Of a DNA stretch of 64,000 nt, positions 37,420 to 61,179 are shown piece by piece. Where the stretch lies: the NCBI RefSeq assembly GCF_000746025.2, contig NZ_CP045798.1, forward strand, positions 1,908,501 through 1,972,500, given 5' to 3'. Position 1 is the first letter of the stretch. Every line of letters starts with the position of its first letter. Source of the stretch: Thermanaerosceptrum fracticalcis (GTDB taxonomy: Bacteria; Bacillota; Peptococcia; DRI-13). A program made the translations under genes and the position numbers. Under the pieces are notes generated by a model. That model saw only the letters and a program-made list of their open reading frames with translations. It was not told the DNA's origin and did not search any database.

Positions 37420-37502
37420 TAATTAAACCTCCTTTAGATTAAGGTTCTGTTAGTTAAAATAAACAAACCTAGTGGCTAAACCGAGTAGCAATAAATTTAA
37501 TA

Positions 37503-37518
37503 TGCAATAAACATGCCA
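37503..37518 (-). promoter_or_regulatory. Sigma-54 (-24/-12) promoter of korDABC
   Basis: Minus strand TGGCATGTTTATTGCA matches the TGGCAYR-N4-TTGCW consensus, with GG and GC ten bases apart. The same 16 bases occur at 42134 and 49024. Predicted start of transcription is about 12 bp past the GC, near 37492. Confidence 0.9.
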
Positions 37519-37557
37519 ACGGGGAATCTTTAATTTAAACCCTATCATTTAGCAAAA

Positions 37558-37597
37558 TGAGTCAATATTGACTCGCTAATGAACCAATTTTTAAGTC
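37558..37597. promoter_or_regulatory. Paired upstream activator sites (UAS), kor promoter
   Basis: Site one TGAGTCAATATTGACTCG at 37558-37575 is a near-perfect palindrome. A degenerate second site begins at 37580 (TGAACCAATTTTTAAGTC), exactly 22 bp on. The same arrangement stands upstream of the sister promoters at 42.1 and 49.0 kb. Confidence 0.75.
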
Positions 37598-37808
37598 GTA
37601 ACTTTTATTACGGAAACAAATGCCTGTCTTACTTGCTTAGATGAACTTCCTCCATAAAATGGATAAACATTTTAAGATGATTCATAAATGAATCGTACAT
37701 CCTGATAGGCCAGACAATAATACGTCTTCAAACCATTTGAATGGCTTGAAGACGCGTAATTGGGGAGGGGAGGTTTGCTTTAGATAGTTTAAATTTTAGT
37801 GGATAATA
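37598..37808. repeat. Duplicated upstream segment of the activator region
   Basis: Between the kor UAS and the SDR stop. 37671-37702 repeats the sequence at 42305-42337, including the palindrome TGATTCATAAATGAATCG (37678-37695), but no activator gene follows here. The kor control region therefore looks like a copy of the 42.1-42.4 kb intergenic region. A short hairpin CGTCTTCAAACCATTTGAA with TTCAAGACG near 37731-37755 could end the SDR transcript. Confidence 0.65.
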
Positions 37809-41633: not shown

Positions 41634-42133
41634 AACAAAACTCCTCCTCTTTCCCCTTATAGATTTAATAAGTAATTGATTTAATAAGTAATTGATTTAA
41701 TAAGTGATTTCAAACATTCTTTCCAACTCCTGAAGTGAAGTAAATAGATAATTGAGACAGGTGGTGACTATCATCCCCCTTTCAAATAAAAAAATGTTTT
41801 TCTTCTTGAACCATGGAACTTTAAATACCTCCTCCACCCGTTAAACTCTCATTTGATTAAATCGCCAACAGTATCTCCTCCTTCTTGAAAATCAATTTTC
41901 TATGTCAAGTCATTTTTAGCTTAAATGTTTGTGCATTATTGCTTTCAATATACTCTGATAGCCATTAAGAGTTTTTCTAATTCACGTGATATTTTCGATA
42001 GTCTATTATTAATATTCTAAAAATTTTATGACTCTCATTCTTTTATCTAAACTTTTTATGTCATATTTCCCTATTTTCCGACATTATTATGGCAAATATT
42101 TTTTATTACCTGTACACTTCATAAATTTAACAA
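41634..42133. repeat. Long leader of the TRAP operon with a 3x16-bp tandem repeat
   Basis: About 500 bp of AT-rich leader between the promoter and dctP. Three copies of a 16-mer (GATTTAATAAGTAATT) stand in tandem at 41662-41709, the third with one change. No gene was recognised in the rest. Confidence 0.65.
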
Positions 42134-42149
42134 TGCAATAAACATGCCA
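42134..42149 (-). promoter_or_regulatory. Sigma-54 (-24/-12) promoter of dctPQM-SDR
   Basis: Minus strand TGGCATGTTTATTGCA, identical to the kor promoter. Flanking bases are also shared for about 100 bp. The leader to dctP would be about 490 nt. Confidence 0.9.
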
Positions 42150-42188
42150 ACGGGGAATCTTTAATTTAAACCCTATAATATAGCAAAA

Positions 42189-42228
42189 TGAGTCAATATT
42201 GACTCGATAATGAACCAATTTTGACTCA
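42189..42228. promoter_or_regulatory. Paired UAS, TRAP promoter
   Basis: TGAGTCAATATTGACTCG at 42189-42206 and TGAACCAATTTTGACTCA at 42211-42228, 22 bp apart (two helix turns), which places both sites on one face of the DNA. They lie about 40-80 bp upstream of the -24 element. Confidence 0.8.
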
Positions 42229-42312
42229 CTATTCTTATTTATAAAGGTTAAAAGCCCTATCTTACTTAGGACAATTACTATATAATATACATAAATATGA
42301 AATATTTTAAGA

Positions 42313-42330
42313 TGATTCATAAATGAATCA
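42313..42330. promoter_or_regulatory. Palindrome in front of the activator gene
   Basis: TGATTCATAAATGAATCA: arms TGATTCA/TGAATCA resemble the UAS arms TGAGTCA/TGACTCA with the same 4-base spacing. It lies 66 bp upstream of the activator ATG and may be used for autoregulation. Confidence 0.65.
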
Positions 42331-42395
42331 TACATCCTTATATGCTAAACAATGAAAACCTCTCCATGTTAAACCAGTGTTTAGGAGGCAAAAAG

Positions 42396-48840: not shown

Positions 48841-49023
48841 TCCTATTTTCTCCTTTCTCTTTCAAAGAACTGTAGCATTACGTCACGGTAAGCCTGAAAG
48901 TAGGTAGCTCAAGTATCTTAAGAACATTATCCAATTCTCCCCCACCGGCATCATTACCATTAATACCCAAATCTTCAGAAGATATATCCACTACAGCCAG
49001 TACCTCACTTATTAAATTTAACA

Positions 49024-49039
49024 TGCAATAAACATGCCA
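49024..49039 (-). promoter_or_regulatory. Sigma-54 (-24/-12) promoter of the aldolase-glcDEF operon
   Basis: Third identical copy of TGGCATGTTTATTGCA on the minus strand. Only the promoter core is shared exactly; sequence on the upstream side then diverges from the other two copies until the UAS. Confidence 0.9.
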
Positions 49040-49078
49040 ACGGGGGATGCTCCACTTCAAAGTGAAAAAATAAGCAAA

Positions 49079-49118
49079 TGAGTCAATAACGACTCATCTT
49101 CGAATCATTATTGACTCA
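49079..49118. promoter_or_regulatory. Paired UAS, aldolase-glcDEF promoter
   Basis: TGAGTCAATAACGACTCA at 49079-49096 and CGAATCATTATTGACTCA at 49101-49118, again 22 bp apart. Spacing is conserved although the sequence between sites is not, which argues for real binding sites. Confidence 0.8.
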
Positions 49119-49122
49119 TTTG

Positions 49123-49161
49123 CTTAAGAAAGTTTATGAAACTCTAAATAAGACAGAATAA
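49123..49161 (+). pseudogene. Relic: 3' end of the 100-residue small-protein gene
   Basis: Translates as LKKVYETLNKTE and stop, the same as the end of the gene at 58721-59023, with nearly identical nucleotides. Nothing of the rest of that gene is present. Confidence 0.85.
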
Positions 49162-49191
49162 AAAAACGCAGGCTAAGCCTCGCGTTTTTTT
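49160..49191. terminator. Terminator copied with the relic
   Basis: AACGCAGGC-TAA-GCCTCGCGTT with A-tract and T-tract at the ends; it corresponds to the terminator at 59025-59050. It may now end the small upstream relic and block read-through toward the UAS. Confidence 0.75.
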
Positions 49192-49222
49192 ATTCTGCCG
49201 TCCATCCTCCATCCATGACTGG
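49190..49222 (-). pseudogene. Relic: 3' end of an SDR gene
   Basis: Minus-strand reading gives PVMDGGWTAE and stop, matching the C-terminus of the SDR at 62677 (LVIDGGWTAE). It follows the terminator directly. Confidence 0.85.
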
Positions 49223-49307: not shown

Positions 49308-50229
49308 TTAATATAGGCTCTTGTAGATATTATAGACATCGCTCCAGGTAAGGGGTACATAATTGTTCTTCATCAGGCGTTCTTGCGCCATGGCCGCTGT
49401 AGTAAACATTTCAATCTCTTCTTCCTTCATGCCGTATTCCCTGAGCTGTTTCCTGCGGATAACCACAGAGAGCAGATTATCCAGGGCAGCCAGGGCATCC
49501 TCTCCCTCTTTCAGCCCCATAATTTCTTTAATTAGTTGATTAAAATTCGCTATTTTACCGCTAGGATTATATTGATTATACACCTGCATGACGGCACTGA
49601 AAAACGCGTAGTTTGCCTCACCGTGGGACACGTGATACCCACCACCCAAGGGATATGAGAGGGCATGCACTGCCGCTACCCCGGTATTGGCGAAGGCGAT
49701 TCCCGCATATGTGCTGGCCAGTAAAACCCCTCCAATGTTTTTGTAAGCCGCTTCCTGGCCTTCCTCCGATATTTTCTTATAAACACCCAATATGTCTTGA
49801 ATAGCTTTTACGCTGAAAAGCTCTGTAAAAGGATTGGATTTGGGCGCCAGGTAGGATTCCACTGCGTGAATCAAGGCATCAATGGAACTGAATGCGAAGA
49901 ATCTATACGGCAAACCCTTGAGGAGAGACGGAATTAGCACTGCCTGATCCGGGAATAAAACGGGATTGACTATCCCTTTCTTCACACGGGCCTGGGTATC
50001 TTCCATAATGGATATATTGGTTACTTCGCTTCCTGTGCCGCAGGTGGTAGGAATCACCACCAGCTTTTTATCCTTGACCACCGGACTTCTCCCATATAAT
50101 ATCTCTAGCACATCTTCCACACCCTGGAGTATCAAGATTTTCGCCACATCTATGACCGTGCCACCTCCCACGGCTATTACCCGCTGGTAATCTTTGCCAT
50201 TCAATTCAGAAACGATGGCATTGATCATT
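49308..50229 (-). pseudogene. 4-hydroxybutyrate dehydrogenase, C-terminal part (split by IS)
   Basis: About 306 residues of an iron-type alcohol dehydrogenase closely like clostridial 4-hydroxybutyrate dehydrogenase: IAVGGGTVIDVAKIL, IPTTCGTGSEVTNIS, DALIHAVESYLAP, HALSYPLGGGYHVSHGEANY. The N-terminal 67 codons lie beyond the IS at 51858-52058. Removing the IS and one copy of its 7-bp target duplication restores one open frame (GEPNDKMINAIVS at the join). The enzyme would convert succinate semialdehyde to 4-hydroxybutyrate. An internal ATG at 50228 could in theory give a truncated product without the N-terminal nucleotide-binding part. Confidence 0.92.
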
Positions 50230-51857
50230 CAGTAGTTATGCAGTTTCAGGATAATTTTCCCAATCCCATAACCTAAGTTCCAAAGAATGTGGCCAGAATT
50301 TATCAATAAGCCTTGAAAAACGCTGGGTTGCCGTGTCAAAATAGACTTGGATCAACTGCTCGCAACAGCGGATCCGACAACCGGCGTTGAAGAAGTACCT
50401 TATCACTTCGCAGAGGGAGGGGGCTTGTTCGGCGCCTTCTTTATTGCACTCCCAAGAGGCATAACAAAGAAGGGTCTTCGCTGTAAACAAGAGCTCCACA
50501 TGTGCGAAATGAGCTGTTTCAGACTGAGCATAGCAAGATGTTAAACCAAGATTCTGTTTAGCGGTGCGGTAAAAAACTTCTATTCTCCATCGTTTAACAT
50601 AGGCAGTTGCAGCTTCTTCCGGCGTATCTACGCGATTGCTTATCAGGAGATACGCATCCTTGAAGGTTGCTGGGCATTCTTCCTCCGGAAGAACTATGCT
50701 GCCCTCGACAGCCTGCTTCTCATAAGTGGCTGCAATGGCAGCTATGGGTAAAAAACGTTGTCTAGTAATGGGTTTTCCCTTGCGTGTTAAGGTCTCATAG
50801 GGCATTTTGATGTAAATGTCCGGAATACTGAGAACCGATTCTTTGCCAAGGACCCGAAGCTGGGAATAAACTTCTCGCAGCAGTTGCTTCGGATTAAGTT
50901 TAATGTAGCGTTCCTTTCCTAGTACCGGGTCGTAGATTTTCCTGAATAGCGCTGTGTTACGTTTGGCTTTGGTAACCCAGTCAAAATTTTGACCCATCAG
51001 CCAGTTCAGGAACTTTTTACACAAAAACCAGCGATCCATGGCTACCCATAGTCTGGCCTTGTTCAGCTGACGAGCCTCTGCGAGCATCTGTTTAGCAAGA
51101 TCAAGCTTGCTTTGTTTTTCATTCTCCTGACCGGTTTTAACCCAAAAGCGCCATAACATGGGATATTCAAGACCATTCTTTAAGATAGCCAGGGTCGACA
51201 CAAGATTAATACACCATACATGGCGCTTATCCGAACTGTCAAAGAGCCAACAGAGAAAGGGGATTTTTTTACCGTGAGGATGCTCAATTTTGGTATCGTC
51301 TAAGGCAATGATATCGCCGTCGGTCAGCCTGCTATCCGTATTTTCTTGTAACCTGGCAAATCTGCCCAAAGAGAACCGGAGCCACTGAAAGGGCTTGGAG
51401 AGAAACCGGCTGAAGGCACTTTGAGAGATGATTTGCCCGGAAAGCAGTTGTTGTAAAAATGGAGCTTCCGTTGAAAACTTAGCATTTTGATTTGCAGAAC
51501 TTGAATGATTAACAAGGCCGCAGATGTAGGCAAAAGCCAGGAGCCACGCTGGAATTCCGGAGTGTTTGCGTATTCCGGACTGGGAAAACAGCAGAGACAG
51601 GTCAAATAAATCCCAAATTGTCTTGAGTACCGGGATTCCGGCACCTTGACCGTGATCCTTTTTTTCGAAAGTTGGTTTACACAGTTTCTTCATCAGCATC
51701 ACCCATATCGCTAGAGTGATGGTAGAAAATACCATCCAAAGCGATTATGGGGGCTTTCCGAAAAAGTCAAGCCTTTTTTGTCGAAAATTAGGATCTTTTT
51801 TAAAATATTTTTTGAGTTATCATTTTCTATTTATTTCCACCAACTGCATAACTCCTG
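50230..51857 (-). mobile_element. IS4-like insertion sequence with 7-bp target duplication
   Basis: 1,628 bp. Inverted ends CAGTAGTTATGCAGTT (50230-50245) and its counterpart at 51842-51857 (CAGGAGTTATGCAGTT read inward) differ by one base. GATCATT flanks both sides (50223-50229 and 51858-51864). It carries one transposase gene and interrupts the 4-hydroxybutyrate dehydrogenase gene. Intact ends and duplication suggest recent insertion. Confidence 0.93.
50236..51699 (-). CDS. IS4-like DDE transposase
   Basis: About 487 residues. Likely acidic residues in IALDDTKIEH, VAMDRWFLC and WRIEVFYRTAKQNLGL fit the DDE pattern of IS4/IS701-like transposases. The frame is uninterrupted and fills the element, ending 6 bp from its left end. 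The start is uncertain: ATG codons at 51699 or 51693 are the best candidates, with no clear RBS. Confidence 0.85.
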   Translation of the reverse strand: MLMKKLCKPTFEKKDHGQGAGIPVLKTIWDLFDLSLLFSQSGIRKHSGIPAWLLAFAYICGLVNHSSSANQNAKFSTEAPFLQQLLSGQIISQSAFSRFLSKPFQWLRFSLGRFARLQENTDSRLTDGDIIALDDTKIEHPHGKKIPFLCWLFDSSDKRHVWCINLVSTLAILKNGLEYPMLWRFWVKTGQENEKQSKLDLAKQMLAEARQLNKARLWVAMDRWFLCKKFLNWLMGQNFDWVTKAKRNTALFRKIYDPVLGKERYIKLNPKQLLREVYSQLRVLGKESVLSIPDIYIKMPYETLTRKGKPITRQRFLPIAAIAATYEKQAVEGSIVLPEEECPATFKDAYLLISNRVDTPEEAATAYVKRWRIEVFYRTAKQNLGLTSCYAQSETAHFAHVELLFTAKTLLCYASWECNKEGAEQAPSLCEVIRYFFNAGCRIRCCEQLIQVYFDTATQRFSRLIDKFWPHSLELRLWDWENYPETA

Positions 51858-52058
51858 GATCATTTTATCGTTGGGCTCACCGTAGCCATAATTCTCCTGG
51901 AAGATGACATGACACGGCAGGTTATAGCCTTTCAGATGGTTATCGAAGATTACAGCGTTAGTGACAAGCAAATCCTCCTCATTGAGGGCAAACTCCTGTA
52001 TAAACTCTGGGAAAGTGTCATATTGATAAAGCTCTGTAGGCAATTTAAAACTATACAA
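51858..52058 (-). pseudogene. 4-hydroxybutyrate dehydrogenase, N-terminal part (split by IS)
   Basis: Encodes MYSFKLPTELYQYDTF through YGYGEPNDKMI, the N-terminus of the dehydrogenase whose remainder is at 49308-50229. Past the IS junction the frame reads a few IS-encoded residues (QELCSWWK) and stops. TTG start with AAAGGATG upstream. It lies 42 bp after the permease gene in the same direction. Confidence 0.9.
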
Positions 52059-52100: not shown

Positions 52101-53546
52101 CTATTTGCTTTGGTCCATACTGCTGCTGCAGCCGATATTACCTACCTTAACTTCCTTGACATTAACTTTTTCGGAAGCTGTATACTCAATCAGGAAGTAG
52201 AGAATGATACCGCTGGCTAAGCCCCAGGCGGCGCCCTTGATAGCCAGGATGGCAGCCATAGTCATAGCCACTCCCCGCTGCATATTGTTATCAAGCATTT
52301 TCATACCGATATATCCACAAGCAAAGGCTTGCACCACCATAGTAAGGGCAAAGAATATACCAAAGGCCGGTTTAATCAGGGTAACCAGGGGCATTAACAT
52401 AACAGCAATAACGGTGGCAGCCCGGAAGGTACCTACGCCTCCCCAGTAGGAAGGTAATGTCTTATATCCCATCTTATACCGTTCTGTTATTGTTAGCAGA
52501 CCGGAAGCCCAGAGAGGACCATTCAAGGGCACCCAGGGCGCGAAGAGACCCATAATACCATTTCTGATGGCTGATACCAGGTTGGAGCGGGAAGCATCAA
52601 ATTCCACAGTTTCATCTTCCCTGGCTGCAGTGGCATCATTAACGATCTCTTTAGCCAAAATAAAGTCGCCGAAGGCGATGATGTACGCGGTCAATGCCAT
52701 GGGCAAGGCATTAATAAAGAACTTTAATTCGGGCCAGCCCAGGCCGAAGACTGTATAATTCTGCAGAACATACCCAAAATTAACGGGTGTCAAAGACCAG
52801 ACGATCTGGGGCACAGGCAATTCTTTCAAGAGATAAGGTCCAACAATAATGGCAAAAAGTTGGGCAGGGACAATTCCCTGATTTCTCAATATCTTAATCC
52901 ACCTGTTCTTTTCGGCAGCTTTGGCAAATGTACCCGAGAATAAGAAGAAATAGGCGATTAAGGTGGAGAGGATAATAGTCATCGGTGCTAACTTTAATCT
53001 AACATTTATTACGTTGAGAGCGGCCGCGAAACCGGCGCCTAGAATAATGCCTCCCCTTACGGAGATGGGGATTCTATCGATTAATTTCTTTCCTACCCCA
53101 GTAGCCCCCATGACGAAAAAGAGCAAGGCTACAAGCAATTGTAAGGCAATCATCGCATGGATTCGATCAGGACCGATGGCATATGCCGATAGATAACCTA
53201 TGGTTAAAGGTAAAGCCGGAGTTATCCAGCCTGGTACAACCGGGTCGCCCAGATGAGCCGGGAGTGCATAGCAGATGGCATTTAAAACACCGAAGGTAAG
53301 GGCTATCTAGAAACTATTAACACCTAAAACCTCCATGGTTGTGGCCACACCGGCGCCTAAACAAGCAACGCCCAAGAACATTGCTGCGAAACATTCTGTC
53401 CATTCCCATTCATAATGTAATAAAGGCAGCCTTATTTTGAAAGGACCAAAGGGTATATAGGGTTGGATTCCTCCATAATCCCTCTTCAAGATAGGAAAAG
53501 TTCCTGACGGTAGTTTTTGCCCTTTTAAGGGTACTTCGCTCGACAT
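52101..53546 (-). pseudogene. Polytopic permease gene with an in-frame TAG
   Basis: One frame from the ATG at 53546 to 52101 (481 codons) is broken only by a TAG at 53307-53309, codon 80. Both halves read as one membrane protein: GVACLGAGVATTMEVLGVNSF before and IALTFGVLNAICYALPAHLG after, with about ten further hydrophobic helices. It has a good RBS (GGAGG). The family is not clear to me; it has the look of a solute:cation symporter. Context suggests uptake of 4-hydroxybutyrate or a precursor. Re-initiation inside the gene (for example at 53153) would give an incomplete protein. Confidence 0.85.
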
Positions 53547-53683: not shown

Positions 53684-53699
53684 TGCAAGTTCTATGCCA
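53684..53699 (-). promoter_or_regulatory. Sigma-54 (-24/-12) promoter of the permease-4HBD genes
   Basis: Minus strand TGGCATAGAACTTGCA: GG and GC are ten bases apart and both hexamers fit the consensus. It lies 137 bp upstream of the permease ATG and faces away from the abfD promoter. Confidence 0.85.
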
Positions 53700-53825
53700 A
53701 TATAATTCCTTTAGTTAGTCATCGTTTTATACATGATATTCAACCGCCAACCCTGTAAAACCAAACAATAAAAAATCACCGACACATATGAGAATAATTA
53801 CTTTTGCCTCTACAGGATTAAAAAA

Positions 53826-53936
53826 CAGTGTACCATTGCACTCTTTTGTGCGTTGTTGCACTGTTTCCCATTCAAGTTTGATTCGTTTTATTTTTTCAGT
53901 CTTCTCTAACTGAAAATACTTGTGCAAAAATGCACA
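53826..53936. promoter_or_regulatory. UAS cluster between the divergent sigma-54 promoters
   Basis: Three palindromes of the form TGTGCA-N4-TGCACA: TGTGCAAAAATGCACA (53921-53936, perfect arms), TGTGCGTTGTTGCACT (53847-53862) and a weaker AGTGTACCATTGCACT (53826-53841). They differ from the TGAGTCA sites of the other regulon, so a separate activator is expected, most likely the one at 57104. The sites serve both directions. Confidence 0.8.
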
Positions 53937-54035
53937 TCACCTGTTTTTGCCTTCCTTTTAACCTTACGAAATAAAATTACCCAAGGAAAATTATTATCTA
54001 TATTTAATTTAGTTTGGTTAAAATAGTTCAATACT

Positions 54036-54051
54036 TGGCACACAATTTGCA
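54036..54051 (+). promoter_or_regulatory. Sigma-54 (-24/-12) promoter of abfD
   Basis: TGGCACACAATTTGCA: exact TGGCAC and TTGCA with GG and GC ten bases apart. It lies 54 bp before the abfD ATG, with AGGAGG in between. Confidence 0.92.
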
Positions 54052-54104: not shown

Positions 54105-55556
54105 ATGCCCTTAAAAACAAAAGAAGAGTATATTGAATCTTTGCGAAAAATGAAGTTTAAGCTTTATCTCTTCGGTGAAAGGGTCGAAAACATTGTAGAC
54201 AATCCCATCGTCCGCCCTTCCATGAATTCGGTGGCTATGACCTATGAACTGGCCCATGACCCCCAATATGAAGACTTGATGACGGCTACCTCCAGTCTCA
54301 CCGGAAAGAAGATAAACCGCTTCTGTCACCTGCATCAAAGCCATGATGACCTGGTTAAAAAAGTAAAAATGCTCCGTCTCTTAGGTCAAAAGACAGCCTC
54401 CTGCTTCCAGCGCTGCGTGGGGATGGATGCCATAAATGCCGTAGACAGCACTACTTACGAAATAGATCAGAAATACGGCACAGAATACCACAAGCGTTTC
54501 CGCAACTGGCTATTAAAAATGCAGGAAAACGACTGGACAGTGGACGGGGCCATGACTGATCCCAAAGGAGACCGGAGTCTTTCTCCTTCGCAGCAGAAAG
54601 ATCCCGATATGTTTGTCCATGTTATAGAAGAAAGAAAAGACGGTATTATTGTGAGAGGCGCCAAGTGCCATCAGACCGGAGCCCTAAACTCCCACGAAAT
54701 CCTGATTATGCCCACCATTGCCATGGGTGAAGCAGACAAGGACTATGCCATATCTTTTGCCCTTCCTGCAGACAGCGAAGGCATAATCTATATTTACGGA
54801 CGCCAATCCTGCGACACCCGGAAACTAGAAGAGGGAACCATGGACTTGGGCAACGCCCAATTCGGGGGACATGAATCTCTGGTAATTCTGGACAATGTAT
54901 TTGTACCCTGGGAAAGGGTCTTTATGTATAAAGAATATGACTTCTCCGGGATGCTTGTAGAGCGTTTTGCCGGCTATCACCGTCAGAGCTACGGCGGCTG
55001 CAAGGTAGGTGTAGGCGATGTCCTCATCGGGGCAGCAGCCCTGGCCGCAGACTATAACGGAGCCAGCAAAGCCAGCCACATTAAGGATAAGCTTATTGAA
55101 ATGACCCACCTGAATGAAACTCTCTACGCCTGTGGTATCGCCTGCTCCTGCCAGGGCCGCCCCACAGCTACGGGAACCTATCTCATTGACCTGCTCCTGG
55201 CCAATGTTTGTAAGCAAAACGTTACCCGCTTCCCCTATGAAATTGCCCGCCTGGCTGAAGATATCGCCGGCGGACTGATGGTCACCATGCCTTCGGAAAA
55301 AGACCTGAAAAACCCGGAAATTGGCCACTATGTGGAAAAATACCTTAGAGGCGTTTTTGAAATTCCTACAGAACACCGGCTCCGTATCCTGCGCCTCATC
55401 GAAAACCTCACTTTGGGAACGGCGGCCGTGGGCTATCGTACTGAATCCATGCATGGCGCCGGGTCTCCCCAGGCCCAACGTATCGTCATCTCCCGCCAGG
55501 CCAATTTCAATGCTAAAAAAGAACTGGCCAAAAAAATAGCAGGTATTACGGAGTAG
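54105..55556 (+). CDS. abfD: 4-hydroxybutyryl-CoA dehydratase / vinylacetyl-CoA isomerase
   Basis: 483 residues, the usual length. FAD and [4Fe-4S] enzyme that dehydrates 4-hydroxybutyryl-CoA and isomerises the product to crotonyl-CoA. The cluster ligands of the family (Cys99, Cys103, His292, Cys299 in C. aminobutyricum) are present as C100, C104, H292 and C299 (CFQRCVGMD and YHRQSYGGC). The gene is intact and has strong codon bias toward G/C third positions. It is preceded by a sigma-54 promoter. Confidence 0.96.
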   Translation: MPLKTKEEYIESLRKMKFKLYLFGERVENIVDNPIVRPSMNSVAMTYELAHDPQYEDLMTATSSLTGKKINRFCHLHQSHDDLVKKVKMLRLLGQKTASCFQRCVGMDAINAVDSTTYEIDQKYGTEYHKRFRNWLLKMQENDWTVDGAMTDPKGDRSLSPSQQKDPDMFVHVIEERKDGIIVRGAKCHQTGALNSHEILIMPTIAMGEADKDYAISFALPADSEGIIYIYGRQSCDTRKLEEGTMDLGNAQFGGHESLVILDNVFVPWERVFMYKEYDFSGMLVERFAGYHRQSYGGCKVGVGDVLIGAAALAADYNGASKASHIKDKLIEMTHLNETLYACGIACSCQGRPTATGTYLIDLLLANVCKQNVTRFPYEIARLAEDIAGGLMVTMPSEKDLKNPEIGHYVEKYLRGVFEIPTEHRLRILRLIENLTLGTAAVGYRTESMHGAGSPQAQRIVISRQANFNAKKELAKKIAGITE

Positions 55557-55611: not shown

Positions 55612-55675
55612 CCTGTCTTCAGGCTATTATTTGTATTCACAAGCAATTTATTTTATTTCGCTGGGGAGTGAGCGT

Positions 55676-56956
55676 ATGTTTTGGAGAAACAGAATTACTT
55701 CAGCAGAAAATGCCATTAAAGCCATTCAATCAGGGTCTCGGGTGGTCATCGGTCATGCTTGCGGCGAACCCCAAACCCTGGTTGAAGCCATGGTAGCCCA
55801 GGCTGAGCGCCTGGAGAATGTGGAAATCGTCCATATGGTAGCAATGGGTAAAGCCAAGTACTGCCAGCCCGGAATGGAAAGGCACTTTCGCCATAATGCC
55901 CTGTTCGTAGGCGGTTCTACCCGGAAAGCCGTACAGGAAGGCAGGGCAGACTATACTCCCTGCTTCTTTTCAGAAATACCCCGCCTCTTTACTAACGGCT
56001 GCCTGCCCGTTGATGTAGCTCTTATCCAAGTCTCCAAACCTGATAATCACGGCTACTGCAGTTTCGGCGTCTCGGTAGATTATACCCGGCCTGCGGCTCT
56101 GGCTGCCAAAACCGTCATCGCCGAAGTTAACGAAGAGATGCCCCGGACCTTAGGAGACTGCTTTATCCATGTTTCCCAAATAGACTATATTGTAGAAACT
56201 TCTGTTCCCCTCATTGAGCTTCCCAAACCCGAAATTTCCCAAGTGGAAGAAAAAATCGGCTACCACGTGGCCCAGCTTGTAGAAGATGGTTCTACCCTGC
56301 AGTTGGGAATTGGGGCCATACCTGATGCCGTACTTCTCTTCCTCAAGGATAAAAAAGATTTGGGCATCCATACAGAAATGTTTTCTGACGGAGTAGTGGA
56401 ACTGGTTGAAGCAGGGGTCATAACAAACGCCGCAAAAACTTTGCACCCAGGTAAAATCGTAGCCAATTTTCTGATGGGCACAAAAAAACTTTACGACTTT
56501 GTAAATGACAATCCCATGGTGGAAATGTATTCGGTAGATTATACCAATGATCCCTTCGTGATTGCAAAGAACCATAAAATGGTTTCCATCAATTCCGCTC
56601 TCCAGGTGGACCTGACAGGTCAGGTCTGTGCAGATACTATTGGGTATAAGCAGTACAGCGGCGTGGGAGGTCAGGTGGATTTCGTACGGGGCGCCAGCCG
56701 TTCGCCTGGGGGCAAATCAGTTATTGCTCTTCCTTCCACTGCCATGGGTGGGAAACTCTCCCGGATTGTCACCTCTCTAGACGAGGGTGCCTCCGTCACC
56801 ACATCCCGTAATGATGTACATTTTGTAGTAACCGAGTACGGCATTGCCGATTTACGCGGCAAGAGTTTACGTCAAAGGGCGGCAGCATTAATACAAATCG
56901 CCCACCCGAATTTCCGGGAAAACCTCTCTAAAACCTTTAAAAACAGGTTTAACTAA
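55676..56956 (+). CDS. abfT: 4-hydroxybutyrate CoA-transferase
   Basis: 426 residues of the acetyl-CoA hydrolase/transferase family: VVIGHACGEPQTL, GRADYTPCFFSEIP, LQLGIGAIPDAVL, SDGVVELVEAGVITN and the C-terminal VTEYGIADLRGKSLRQRA. The catalytic glutamate region is HTEMFSDG. It moves CoA from acetyl-CoA to 4-hydroxybutyrate. The ATG at 55676 has GGGGAG upstream; a longer frame back to 55631 lacks an RBS. Codons match abfD. Confidence 0.93.
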   Translation: MFWRNRITSAENAIKAIQSGSRVVIGHACGEPQTLVEAMVAQAERLENVEIVHMVAMGKAKYCQPGMERHFRHNALFVGGSTRKAVQEGRADYTPCFFSEIPRLFTNGCLPVDVALIQVSKPDNHGYCSFGVSVDYTRPAALAAKTVIAEVNEEMPRTLGDCFIHVSQIDYIVETSVPLIELPKPEISQVEEKIGYHVAQLVEDGSTLQLGIGAIPDAVLLFLKDKKDLGIHTEMFSDGVVELVEAGVITNAAKTLHPGKIVANFLMGTKKLYDFVNDNPMVEMYSVDYTNDPFVIAKNHKMVSINSALQVDLTGQVCADTIGYKQYSGVGGQVDFVRGASRSPGGKSVIALPSTAMGGKLSRIVTSLDEGASVTTSRNDVHFVVTEYGIADLRGKSLRQRAAALIQIAHPNFRENLSKTFKNRFN

Positions 56957-57103: not shown

Positions 57104-58677
57104 ATGCCAGAAAAAACCTACCTGAATTCCGGAGAATCCCTTACCGAAGAACTCCTTACCATTCTTGAATCCACCTATAATGGCATCATTGCTATCAACA
57201 AGGAAGGAATAGTCACCATCATAACAAGTCTGCGGAACGCTTTTTAGGAAAACCTGCTTCTCTGGTCCTCGGCAGACATATTAAAGAAATTTTGGTTAAT
57301 ACGGGTCTTTTGGAAGTAATGAGAACAGGCCAAGCCCAAGCAGGTCAGAAACTGACTATCGGGGACCGGACCTTTATTACCAACAGGACCCCAATCTATA
57401 AAGACGGGGAAATCATTGGGGCTATCGGTGTCTTTCAGGACATCTCCGACCTGGATTCAATTTCCCGGGAACTCAGGTCGGTGCGGGAAATAAGCGAGGA
57501 GTTGGACGCAATAATTGAATCATCCTACGACGGCATCTATGTTACCGACGGTGTAGGTGTAACTATCCGGGTGAATAAAGCCTATGAACGAATTACCGGT
57601 GTGTTAGCCAAAGAAGTAATAGGGCGTAACATGAAAGATTTAGTCAAAGAAGGTTTCTTTGATCAGTCTGTTACCCTCATCGTCCTGGAAAAGAAGCAGC
57701 CCGCCACCATCATGCAGGAAATAAAGAAAACCGGGAAACAAGTGATTGTCACGGGAAATCCTGTCTACAATTCCGAAGGAAAAATTGTTCGCGTAGTAAC
57801 AAATGTTCGTGATATTACGGAACTTAACACTTTAAAAAGTCAACTGGAAAAGACCCAGAATCTTTCCCAACGTTACTACTCCGAACTCCAGCACTTGAGA
57901 AGCCAGCAAATGGACCTGGAAGGGATGATTGTAGTCAGCCCCGAGATGAAAACTATTATCGAAAAAGTGAAACGGATCAGCCAGGTTGAATCTACCGTCT
58001 TAATCATGGGAGAGTCCGGTGTGGGAAAAGAAAATATCGCCAAACTCATTCACCGTTGCAGTCCCAGGTTTGAGGGGCCTTTTATTAAAATCAACTGCGG
58101 AGCTATCCCGGAAAACCTATTAGAGTCTGAACTCTTTGGTTACGAAACGGGCGCTTTCACAGGAGCCAAAAAAGGTGGCAAACCAGGACTAGTTGAACTG
58201 GCCAACGGGGGTTCTTTGTTTCTTGATGAAATTGGTGAGTTAGGCTTAGCCATGCAGGTTAAACTCCTGCGCCTTCTGCAGGAAAAGGAATTTATCCGGG
58301 TAGGAGGCACACAAACCCAGTTAGCCAATATACGGATTATTGCTGCAACCAATAAAGATTTAAAAGCCATGGTCCAGGAAAAGCATTTCCAGGAAGATCT
58401 ATATTATCGCCTCAATGTGGTCCCTATTTATATTCCTCCCCTCCGGGATGAGATTTCGGAGAACGACCTGCCGGAACACATCAAAGGGCAAATCTCTCCG
58501 GGCGAAAAAAAGGTGAAAACCCTCGAACAAATAGTGGCCGAGATCGAAGAGGACGCTATCTCCAAGGCCTTAGAACGCAACAAAAATATGGAAAAAGCTG
58601 CCCACGCTCTAGGGATTCACAGGACTACCCTTCTCCGCAAAGCCAGGAAGTATGGCATCACTATTAGCGGTTCCTAG
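57104..58677 (+). pseudogene. Sigma-54-dependent activator, frameshifted and internally deleted
   Basis: Same PAS-PAS-AAA+-Fis family as the activator at 42396. From the ATG at 57104 the frame ([19 protein letters not shown]) runs into a stop at 57245; the next frame carries on at once with [19 protein letters not shown], so about one base is missing near 57218-57224. Downstream, Walker [15 protein letters not shown] and [10 protein letters not shown] are intact, but PPLRDE is joined directly to [10 protein letters not shown] near 58450: about 60 residues, including WPGNVREL (sensor II), are gone. The HTH ([17 protein letters not shown]) remains. It was probably the regulator of the abf genes. 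Confidence 0.9.
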
Positions 58678-58720: not shown

Positions 58721-59023
58721 ATGAAAAAAATCGGTATCAAATACTGCGGTAATTGTAACCCACATATTGACAGTCCTGCTATCATCAACTATCTTAAAGA
58801 ACACAGCAAAGGAGAATGGGAGTTTGTCTCCTGGAATGACAATGAGATGGCCCTTTTAATTATCATGAGCGGTTGCCCTGCCGATTGTGCTACCCGCCCT
58901 GATTTTCAAGGTAAAGTCATTTCTGTAAGCGGCCTGTATGTAGACCTACATCCCGTAGAGGAAAAGGTCCTTAAAGAAACATTATTAAAGAAAGTTTATG
59001 AAACTCTAAATAAGACAGAATAA
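58721..59023 (+). CDS. Small CGNCNP-motif protein of unknown function
   Basis: 100 residues. N-terminal IKYCGNCNPHID and a second Cys pair (SGCPADCATRP) could bind a metal or form a redox pair. I have a general recollection of short CGxCNP proteins near organic-acid genes in Clostridia, but no function is known to me. AGGAG precedes the ATG. It is 43 bp after the activator pseudogene. Its last 13 codons are duplicated at 49123-49161. Confidence 0.75.
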   Translation: MKKIGIKYCGNCNPHIDSPAIINYLKEHSKGEWEFVSWNDNEMALLIIMSGCPADCATRPDFQGKVISVSGLYVDLHPVEEKVLKETLLKKVYETLNKTE

Positions 59024-59024
59024 G

Positions 59025-59050
59025 AACGCAGGCTTAGCCTGCGTTTTTTT
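59025..59050 (+). terminator. Intrinsic terminator after the small protein
   Basis: AACGCAGGC-TTA-GCCTGCGTT, 9-bp perfect stem, followed by T-run. The 62-bp repeat array begins at the next base. Confidence 0.9.
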
Positions 59051-59174
59051 AACGTATAGGAAAGTATAAAAATTTTTGTGGTTCTCAGCCCTTGCTAAGC
59101 AAGGGTTTTTTCAACGTATAGGAAAGTATAAAAATTTTTGTGGTTCTCAGCCCTTGCTAAGCAAGGGTTTTTTC
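59051..59174 (+). repeat. 62-bp tandem repeat array, two copies
   Basis: Two head-to-tail identical 62-bp units starting at 59051 and 59113. Each contains a GTATAGGAAAGTATAAAAAT segment, GTGGTTCTCAG, and an intrinsic-terminator hairpin CCCTTGC-TAA-GCAAGGG with TTTTTT. Seven more copies lie at 60700-61133 on the other side of the IS21 remnant. The end of the second copy supplies the last codons and stop of the truncated istA. Confidence 0.95.
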
Positions 59175-60320
59175 ATTTTTTACGGCCCTGGGCTTAGCAG
59201 CTAATATAGGCAGATAGTGTTCCAGTTTCATGATCTTTTCGCCACGGTCGTAGCAGCGGTCATGGATGGCTACCAGCTTGGTTGAATCGTAAATCTCTAA
59301 TCGGTCGACGAAGGCCTCAACACGTAACTTTCTATGGGCATATTCTATGGGGACAGAATAGTAATTACGGCTGAATTGGAAGAGGAGCAGCTTACTTACT
59401 GAAATCATATGAGTGCTGGAACATTTAAACGGGGCTGATGGTAAGGGCCTTAGTTCTTGACGTTCCTGCTCCCAGTCTTTAATACGCAATTGCCGTTGTT
59501 TTTCGCACCAGTTCAGGAGCATACTGTTGAGTTCATCTAATGAGTTGACTTCGGGTACTGGTACTAGGGCATTTTGCCGGACATACTTGACCAGATTCTC
59601 CACCGTCCCCTTCTCATTACCACTGTGGGGATTACAGAACTCGCTGTCAAAAAGATAGTGGGCGCGGAGACTGGAGAAATGCTTATGTTCTTCTCGGTAA
59701 GGTCCCTTTAGGATCTTAGTTACAGCCGTCTTAGGGTTATCGTAGACAAGATTCCAAGGGATTCCTCCCAGCCATTCAAAAGCCCTTCTATGGCCTTCTA
59801 AGAAACCTTCTAGCTTTTCTGTGGGGGAGGCCCATACAAAGGAGACTAGACTTGCTTTAAGTCTTAGGCAGAAGAGGGATACTTCAGTTAACTTACCATT
59901 TATGTAGACCTTGGCTCTCCCCCAATCAACCTGGGCTTGTTCGCCCCAGTCTGCTGTTAGAGGCACATAGGCTTCATTGAGTTCATTTTTCACTATTCTG
60001 ACATATCTCCGTACTGTTGTTTCGCTTCCTGTATAGTCATATTCTTCACAAAGGCGGTGATATATCCTCCTGGCTGTATGTTGTTGTTTTTCGGGTTGGG
60101 TTTTATCTAGTTCTAGCCATTCCCTAATTATTTCTTTATATGGGTCTAATACGGGACAGGGCTTTTCTTGGGATAGTTGGTATTTCGGTATTTCTGAGTT
60201 TTGAAGGGCTTTTCTTACTGTCTGCCGGGCCACGTGTAGATTCCGGCTAATCTTTCGTATGGACCACCCTTCAATGTAATACTTTTTTCTGATATACTCT
60301 TTATCGACCATTCCGATCAT
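59157..60320 (-). CDS. istA: IstA-type IS21 transposase, C-terminally truncated
   Basis: 387 residues. N-terminal HTH (GWSIRKISRNLHVARQTVRKAL), DDE catalytic acids in AQVDWGRA, VYDNPKTAV and NEKGTVENLV. The protein ends EKTLA within the repeat array, about where other IstA proteins continue for roughly 100 residues, and no istB follows. The start at 60320 has AGGAGG seven bases upstream. The element is therefore probably defective. Confidence 0.88.
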   Translation of the reverse strand: MIGMVDKEYIRKKYYIEGWSIRKISRNLHVARQTVRKALQNSEIPKYQLSQEKPCPVLDPYKEIIREWLELDKTQPEKQQHTARRIYHRLCEEYDYTGSETTVRRYVRIVKNELNEAYVPLTADWGEQAQVDWGRAKVYINGKLTEVSLFCLRLKASLVSFVWASPTEKLEGFLEGHRRAFEWLGGIPWNLVYDNPKTAVTKILKGPYREEHKHFSSLRAHYLFDSEFCNPHSGNEKGTVENLVKYVRQNALVPVPEVNSLDELNSMLLNWCEKQRQLRIKDWEQERQELRPLPSAPFKCSSTHMISVSKLLLFQFSRNYYSVPIEYAHRKLRVEAFVDRLEIYDSTKLVAIHDRCYDRGEKIMKLEHYLPILAAKPRAVKNEKTLA

Positions 60321-60526: not shown

Positions 60527-60699
60527 ATAAATTGGGAGTTAATTCTTGTTTTGGATTAACTTAGACATGTTTTAAACTGCACGGACGTAGAGAAATATGT
60601 TACCATAGTGGCAGGACTCTCCTTTCGGTAAGTGTGGTCGCAAACATAGCATTTCACCGACAAGGTTCAAGAGTCCTTTTTCCATTTCAGGATTTTTTT
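60527..60699 (+). ncRNA. Structured segment with branched hairpin ending in a T-run
   Basis: AGGACTCT (60614-60621) pairs with AGAGTCCT (60671-60678), CCTT (60622-60625) with AAGG (60663-60666), and CGGT (60627-60630) with ACCG (60657-60660); TTTTT follows. No reading frame is evident. It may be a terminator with a long loop, a small RNA or part of an IS end. Low certainty. Confidence 0.4.
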
Positions 60700-61133
60700 A
60701 ACGTATAGGAAAGTATAAAAATTTTTGTGGTTCTCAGCCCTTGCTAAGCAAGGGTTTTTTCAACGTATAGGAAAGTATAAAAATTTTTGTGGTTCTCAGC
60801 CCTTGCTAAGCAAGGGTTTTTTCAACGTATAGGAAAGTATAAAAATTTTTGTGGTTCTCAGCCCTTGCTAAGCAAGGGTTTTTTCAACGTATAGGAAAGT
60901 ATAAAAATTTTTGTGGTTCTCAGCCCTTGCTAAGCAAGGGTTTTTTCAACGTATAGGAAAGTATAAAAATTTTTGTGGTTCTCAGCCCTTGCTAAGCAAG
61001 GGTTTTTTCAACGTATAGGAAAGTATAAAAATTTTTGTGGTTCTCAGCCCTTGCTAAGCAAGGGTTTTTTCAACGTATAGGAAAGTATAAAAATTTTTGT
61101 GGTTCTCAGCCCTTGCTAAGCAAGGGTTTTTTC
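60700..61133 (+). repeat. 62-bp tandem repeat array, seven copies
   Basis: Units start at 60700, 60762, 60824, 60886, 60948, 61010 and 61072 and look identical to each other and to the two at 59051. Each ends in the CCCTTGC-TAA-GCAAGGG-TTTTTT hairpin. The array is followed by ATTTTTTAACG and then the IS91-like transposase gene 47 bp later. Confidence 0.96.
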
Positions 61134-61179
61134 ATTTTTTAACGAAAGCAGGAAGTAGTTGTTAGAAAGGTGAGAACAT

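Follow-up and report, generated by a model that had tools for sequence, protein, structure and literature searches.

Control of 4-hydroxybutyryl-CoA dehydratase genes by sigma-54 and a PAS-type activator, with abfD as the target, is a type of bacterial regulation that is already known. In Clostridium, the sigma-54 activator XanR governs the regulon abfD-nifU-hyp-ach-golB (Nie et al., 2019, PMC6615313), and COG2368, which includes 4-hydroxybutyryl-CoA dehydratase, is listed as sigma-54-regulated in Clostridia in the portion of a 2025 survey drawn on here (PMC12316311). According to the portions of the Clostridium study used here, motif similarity follows helix-turn-helix (HTH) similarity among such activators, operons of most groups as a rule have several sites upstream, and most upstream sites in Clostridiales lie at a distance of 100-250 bp (PMC6615313). 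A second described system is that of PrdR, a PAS-AAA+-HTH protein (NCBIfam NF041552), the sites of which are given in the same portions as TGT and ACA separated by 10-12 bp (PMC6615313).

The locus described here lies in a window, the whole 64,000-nucleotide stretch that was analysed, which comprises bases 1908501-1972500 of the single 3.8 Mb contig of Thermanaerosceptrum fracticalcis. Like the XanR regulon, it combines sigma-54, an enhancer-binding protein and abfD as the first gene of a target operon, with a sigma-54 promoter and several sites upstream. The operon content of the two systems differs, and the XanR motif is termed "distinct" in the portions used here (PMC6615313). Among NCBIfam models, that of PrdR gives the best match to each of the two activators encoded in the window, at 57104 and 42342; the two scores, 368.8 and 432.6 bits in ascending order, lie far below its equivalog cut-off of 795, so that neither is assigned as PrdR, and the PrdR sites are unlike the operators of the window. 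The combination of operator, recognition helix and site geometry set out below was not found in those parts of the literature that were searched for the operator or for a 4-hydroxybutyrate activator, a comparison that did not extend to the motif of XanR. In our assessment, the intergenic region upstream of abfD is very probably a single enhancer common to two sigma-54 promoters that face away from each other in a 4-hydroxybutyrate gene cluster, bound by an activator of the 57104 type, in a circuit that is now most likely inactive.

Two -24/-12 promoters were identified by motif match, one on the minus strand at 53684-53700 (TGGCATAGAACTTGCA at 53684-53699), preceding a permease-dehydrogenase operon, and one on the plus strand at 54035-54051 (TGGCACACAATTTGCA at 54036-54051), preceding abfD and a CoA-transferase gene. 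Both carry the TGGCAY-N5-TTGCW signature of sigma-54-dependent promoters and are exact copies of TTGGCAYN5TTGCW, a sequence present at 30 sites in the whole 3.8 Mb genome and at none for the reversed control. With up to one mismatch allowed, the window contains eight -24/-12 sites against a shuffle mean of 2.1, a number reached in none of 100 shuffles. The preliminary description had placed promoters at 53684 (minus) and 54036 (plus), and both are indeed there, among the 30 genomic sites. The genome has one sigma-54 gene (a single PF04552 match, 211.8 bits) and approximately 30 sigma-54 activators (L002-L031), one of which (L029/L030) is interrupted by one TAG beside an intact-looking promoter.

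On the plus strand, abfD (54105-55556) encodes a member of the 4-hydroxybutyryl-CoA dehydratase/vinylacetyl-CoA isomerase family with HpaB domains, which aligns over nearly its full length with the 4-hydroxybutyryl-CoA dehydratase of gamma-aminobutyrate metabolism (1u8v; E 7.7e-241). At the level of the alignment no difference from that enzyme was seen, and the same activity is predicted. The gene is intact, and a dN/dS of 0.013 relative to the copy in genome G001, at a dS near saturation (2.9), indicates that selection has maintained it for at least the greater part of its past. That copy is the closest relative by sequence (94%) and sits behind another open reading frame, with no comparable intergenic region when read by eye. 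Seven matches to abfD were found in the window's own genome, two of which (L067 and L068) have other sigma-54 activators and promoters directly upstream. The next gene (55631-56956, plus) was identified by domain and NCBIfam searches as an acyl-CoA:carboxylate CoA-transferase; its scores do not reach the curated cut-offs of the named NCBIfam models, and its context points to a 4-hydroxybutyrate CoA-transferase.

The genes on the minus strand are damaged. The permease gene (52101-53546), which has no Pfam family, is interrupted at 53307-53309 by an in-frame TAG; an intact relative approximately 75% identical (L081) has a histidine at that position, and a reading of the TAG as a coded residue was set aside on that ground. 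Downstream, a 1.64-kb insertion sequence (50224-51863, minus; transposase at 50236-51735) with 22-nt terminal repeats that are 86% identical divides an iron-type alcohol dehydrogenase gene. The N-terminal piece of the dehydrogenase (51831-52058, minus) resembles the beginning of the dehydrogenase at locus L063 (54% identity, E 1e-25), while the remainder (49308-50228, minus), a Fe-ADH domain, was aligned to residues 66-370 of 30sm_A; both pieces match one gene region in genome G005. The nearest solved relative is labelled Cvir-Hbd2, the NCBIfam model for 4-hydroxybutyrate dehydrogenase matches below its cut-off, and the split gene is probably, to judge from its sequence, a 4-hydroxybutyrate dehydrogenase. 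Taken together, the cluster looks like one for the uptake, oxidation, activation and dehydration of 4-hydroxybutyrate, which we infer to be the substrate. Orthologues of the permease were sought in the 45 other genomes of the class, with matches in two, at 48-49%, and a search of contigs returned only the L081 relative (75%), whose surroundings differ and include no abfD match. As a route to an orthologous locus or operator the permease was thus abandoned; the activator and HTH routes did yield an operator.

Between the promoters lie three candidate operator sites: site 1 at 53827-53842 (AGTGTA-CCAT-TGCACT, AGTGTACCATTGCACT), site 2 at 53847-53862 (TGTGCG-TTGT-TGCACT, TGTGCGTTGTTGCACT) and site 3 at 53921-53936 (TGTGCA-AAAA-TGCACA, TGTGCAAAAATGCACA). 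Relative to TGTGCA-N4-TGCACA they have three, two and zero mismatches in 12 positions, respectively, and site 3 is the sole exact copy in the genome. Where the preliminary description had spoken of three palindromes, the cluster of three sites stands, but only one is a perfect palindrome, the other two each being off at one of the 10 positions of the core GTGCA-N4-TGCAC. Sites with at most three mismatches to the full palindrome are no more frequent in the window than expected (18 against a chance mean of 19.3), so the signal resides in the clustering. When the 559-bp intergenic region was shuffled, 23 of 3000 shuffles gave an equally good cluster, defined as a perfect G+C-containing 6-4-6 palindrome having three or more copies with three mismatches at most. 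When the core was treated as known, no shuffle out of 3000 produced three sites at two mismatches or fewer; 23 of 3000 is the fairer figure, because the fixed core was picked after the relatives and this region had been seen.

Genome-wide, the palindrome with up to two mismatches occurs at 69 places, compared with 36 for the reversed control, a count too loose to define a regulon and rejected for that purpose. Among the matches listed, the one-mismatch places at 841747, 2055620 and 3129008 had no sigma-54 promoter in the stretches fetched, and neither did the stretch around 41822 (CGTGCATAACTGCACG), where the core is intact; an extended stem followed by T residues makes the latter read as a terminator. 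A TGTGCA-N6-TGCACA repeat directly after the activator gene of L016, near position 1550880, is likewise followed by T residues and was not retained as an operator. Such terminator-like repeats, along with the chance-level count in the window, are what would be expected if the inverted repeats upstream of abfD were themselves accidental or terminator-like hairpins with no regulator. To this explanation we give almost no credence, given that no run of T residues flanks either the 53827 or the 53921 site when inspected by eye, that so few shuffles match the cluster, and that a distant genome (G071, below) repeats both the sites and their spacing.

The operator was assigned by comparison with relatives. 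The activator was searched for in 398 genomes of the phylum, and a search with the HTH alone returned 12 of these at E <= 1e-7, the window's own genome included. Three genomes from as many other families (G071, G086 and G142) have an activator with the same type of recognition helix, ARTTVLRK or HRTTLLRK, adjoining abfD and a CoA-transferase gene. Exact GTGCA-N4-TGCAC cores are present in the gap, three in G071, where they stand between the activator and abfD, and one each in G086 and G142; the sigma-54 promoter is exact in G071 and G142, and G086 has AGGCACGGCTTTTGCT, one base off. The G071 activator is intact (704 aa) and 62% identical to the 57104 activator over 397 aa; its class is represented by this one genome only. 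No exact core was found in the stretches fetched from the remaining eight genomes of the HTH search, which have other helices (G047, G307, G134, G394, G289, G081, G122 and G118), in two of which a weaker repeat (one mismatch in G289, more degenerate in G047) was set aside because it reads as a terminator.

Across 95 distinct activator C-termini from 108 loci, an exact core lies beside the activator gene in three of the five with an RTT[LV]LRK helix and in one of the 90 others (Fisher p 2.8e-4), and that one is a hairpin followed by a T-rich run, which was discounted as terminator-like. The two misses within the helix class are the window itself, the sites of which are approximately 3 kb upstream of the activator gene, before abfD, and G472, which has one one-mismatch site and the gene of a CaiB-type CoA-transferase, rather than abfD, as its target. 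Because the class was defined after the first positive genomes, G472 is the sole held-out case and supports the pairing only in part. A further search of 63 genomes yielded mostly other helices; among the loci returned, RTT[LV]LRK appeared in G472 and G142 only.

The preliminary description had proposed two nearby sigma-54 regulons with distinct operators and paralogous activators, and had further suggested that each operator could be assigned to its activator. The first proposal was borne out, the operator of the other regulon being GAGTCA-N4-TGACTC, which with up to one mismatch occurs at five places in the genome, four of them beside three similar promoters at 37503, 42134 and 49024. The assignment itself found support too, if not from proximity, which alone is insufficient: helix, operator and abfD occur together again in distant genomes, and this favours GTGCA-N4-TGCAC as the partner of the 57104-type activator rather than of the 42342 activator.

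The geometry of the sites is also shared. Measured to the -24 element of the abfD promoter, the site centres lie at 201.5, 181.5 and 107.5 bp in the window and at 205.5, 183.5 and 105.5 bp in G071, an agreement within 4 bp that three randomly placed sites reach in 1.2e-4 of draws. Such shared spacing speaks for the two imperfect window sites being genuine. The arrangement in G142 and G086 is different, with one exact core and one two-mismatch site each, 23 and 21 bp apart, and not three sites. From the minus promoter the three window sites are separated by 135.5-229.5 bp, so that they can serve both promoters; the distances to the abfD promoter fit the 100-250-bp range given for Clostridiales in the portions of the study cited above (PMC6615313).

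In the proposed mechanism, dimers of a 57104-type PAS-AAA+-HTH activator would bind the three GTGCA-N4-TGCAC sites, which are approximately two and seven helical turns apart. The PAS domains would sense a metabolite, upon which the dimers would assemble into a hexamer ring, and DNA looping would carry the ring to sigma-54 polymerase at either promoter, where the polymerase would be remodelled. In this organism, the circuit would fail at the activator step.

The activator gene (57104-58677, plus), delimited from its open reading frames, a domain search and an alignment to the G071 protein, is broken. The frame that begins at the ATG at 57104 stops at 57245-57247, after 47 codons, and the remainder continues in another frame, in an open reading frame at 57292-58677. 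Sigma54_activat (PF00158), HTH_50 and HTH_8 domains were recognized, the translation contains the GAFTGA loop, and the Fis-type HTH (58510-58659, plus) has the helix HRTTLLRK. Residues 568-646 of the intact G071 activator are unmatched, with approximately 12 codons in their place, and the Pfam search that detected the AAA+ lid (PF25601) in the 42342 activator did not find it in the 57104 activator. With a frameshift and a missing segment, the gene does not encode a complete AAA+ module with lid in one open frame. ATPases of this kind have their nucleotide site between lid and alpha/beta subdomain, according to the part of the source used here (PMC7175178), so that a protein without the lid would be expected to be inactive.

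The preliminary description had recognized this activator as damaged, and the frameshift and lost lid agree with that view, which missed the wider decay seen in the permease stop and the dehydrogenase insertion; in its present state, the 57104 activator is unsuited to a test of the operator assignment. The single-base lesions could be sequencing errors, which the insertion and the missing lid hardly are. Given a frameshifted activator that lacks its lid, a stop codon within the permease gene and an insertion in the dehydrogenase gene, the regulon in this genome is probably a silent relic, in which the promoters and the three sites persist although the activator gene and two target genes are broken. 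The locus thus carries a warning that intact-looking promoters and operators are no proof of a working regulon.

The persistence of abfD under selection for most of its history at least, together with the presence of roughly 30 activators of the same class, the closest of them 59% identical to the 57104 activator, might suggest that the operator is real and is now driven in trans by another, intact activator of the genome. We regard this as unlikely, since the only HTH match in the genome at E <= 1e-7 is the 57104 gene itself, leaving no other RTT[LV]LRK-type helix, since the three promoters that go with the 42342 activator carry GAGTCA-N4-TGACTC as its operator, and since the repeat at L016 has a wider spacer and runs into a terminator-like stretch of T residues. 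It is highly improbable, moreover, that the shortened protein of the 57292-58677 frame binds and blocks the sites as a passive or negative regulator. That frame does still hold one PAS domain, the GAFTGA loop and the HTH, but its listed start is a TTG with no clear ribosome site before it, as judged by eye, and the breakage of neighbouring genes is consistent with plain decay. For 4-hydroxybutyrate use in anaerobes of the phylum, the locus offers an operator, an activator type and a target that are open to testing.

The pairing of helix and operator, which recurs across families, may have a wider counterpart. TGATGC-N6-GCATCA occurs near the promoters of family members with QST[VI]VRK helices (L004, L090 and L099). 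Written in the same 6-N6-6 form, the perfect site of the window is TTGTGC-N6-GCACAT and the sites of the 42342 activator are TGAGTC-N6-GACTCG or similar. A helix-to-half-site code in the activator family is plausible from these sequences; L100, L103 and L109, which also have QSTVVRK, count against a simple one, their arms standing in the opposite order, with GCATC before GATGC. A fuller proposal, which we consider tentative and rather unlikely, would be that a dyad of fixed layout has its half-site set by the helix (TTGTGC for RTT[LV]LRK, TGATGC for QST[VI]VRK and TGAGTC for QSSVVRR), so that the code could be derived from genomes, and that the window presents an instance of operators outliving their activator, the remnant of which may persist as a non-activating DNA binder.

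Several further features of the window were observed. Three promoter-operator cassettes of the 42342-type activator (37491-37730, 42121-42366 and 49006-49118), 75-79% identical by blastn, precede three different operons and look duplicated. Beside the 49024 promoter lies a 67-bp copy (49126-49192, 93%) of the 3' end and terminator (58988-59051) of the gene at 58721-59023, which points to an earlier rearrangement involving both regulons. Finally, a tandem array with a 62-bp step (60689-61141) stands beside transposase genes and is partly repeated 1.5 kb away, at 59032-59182.
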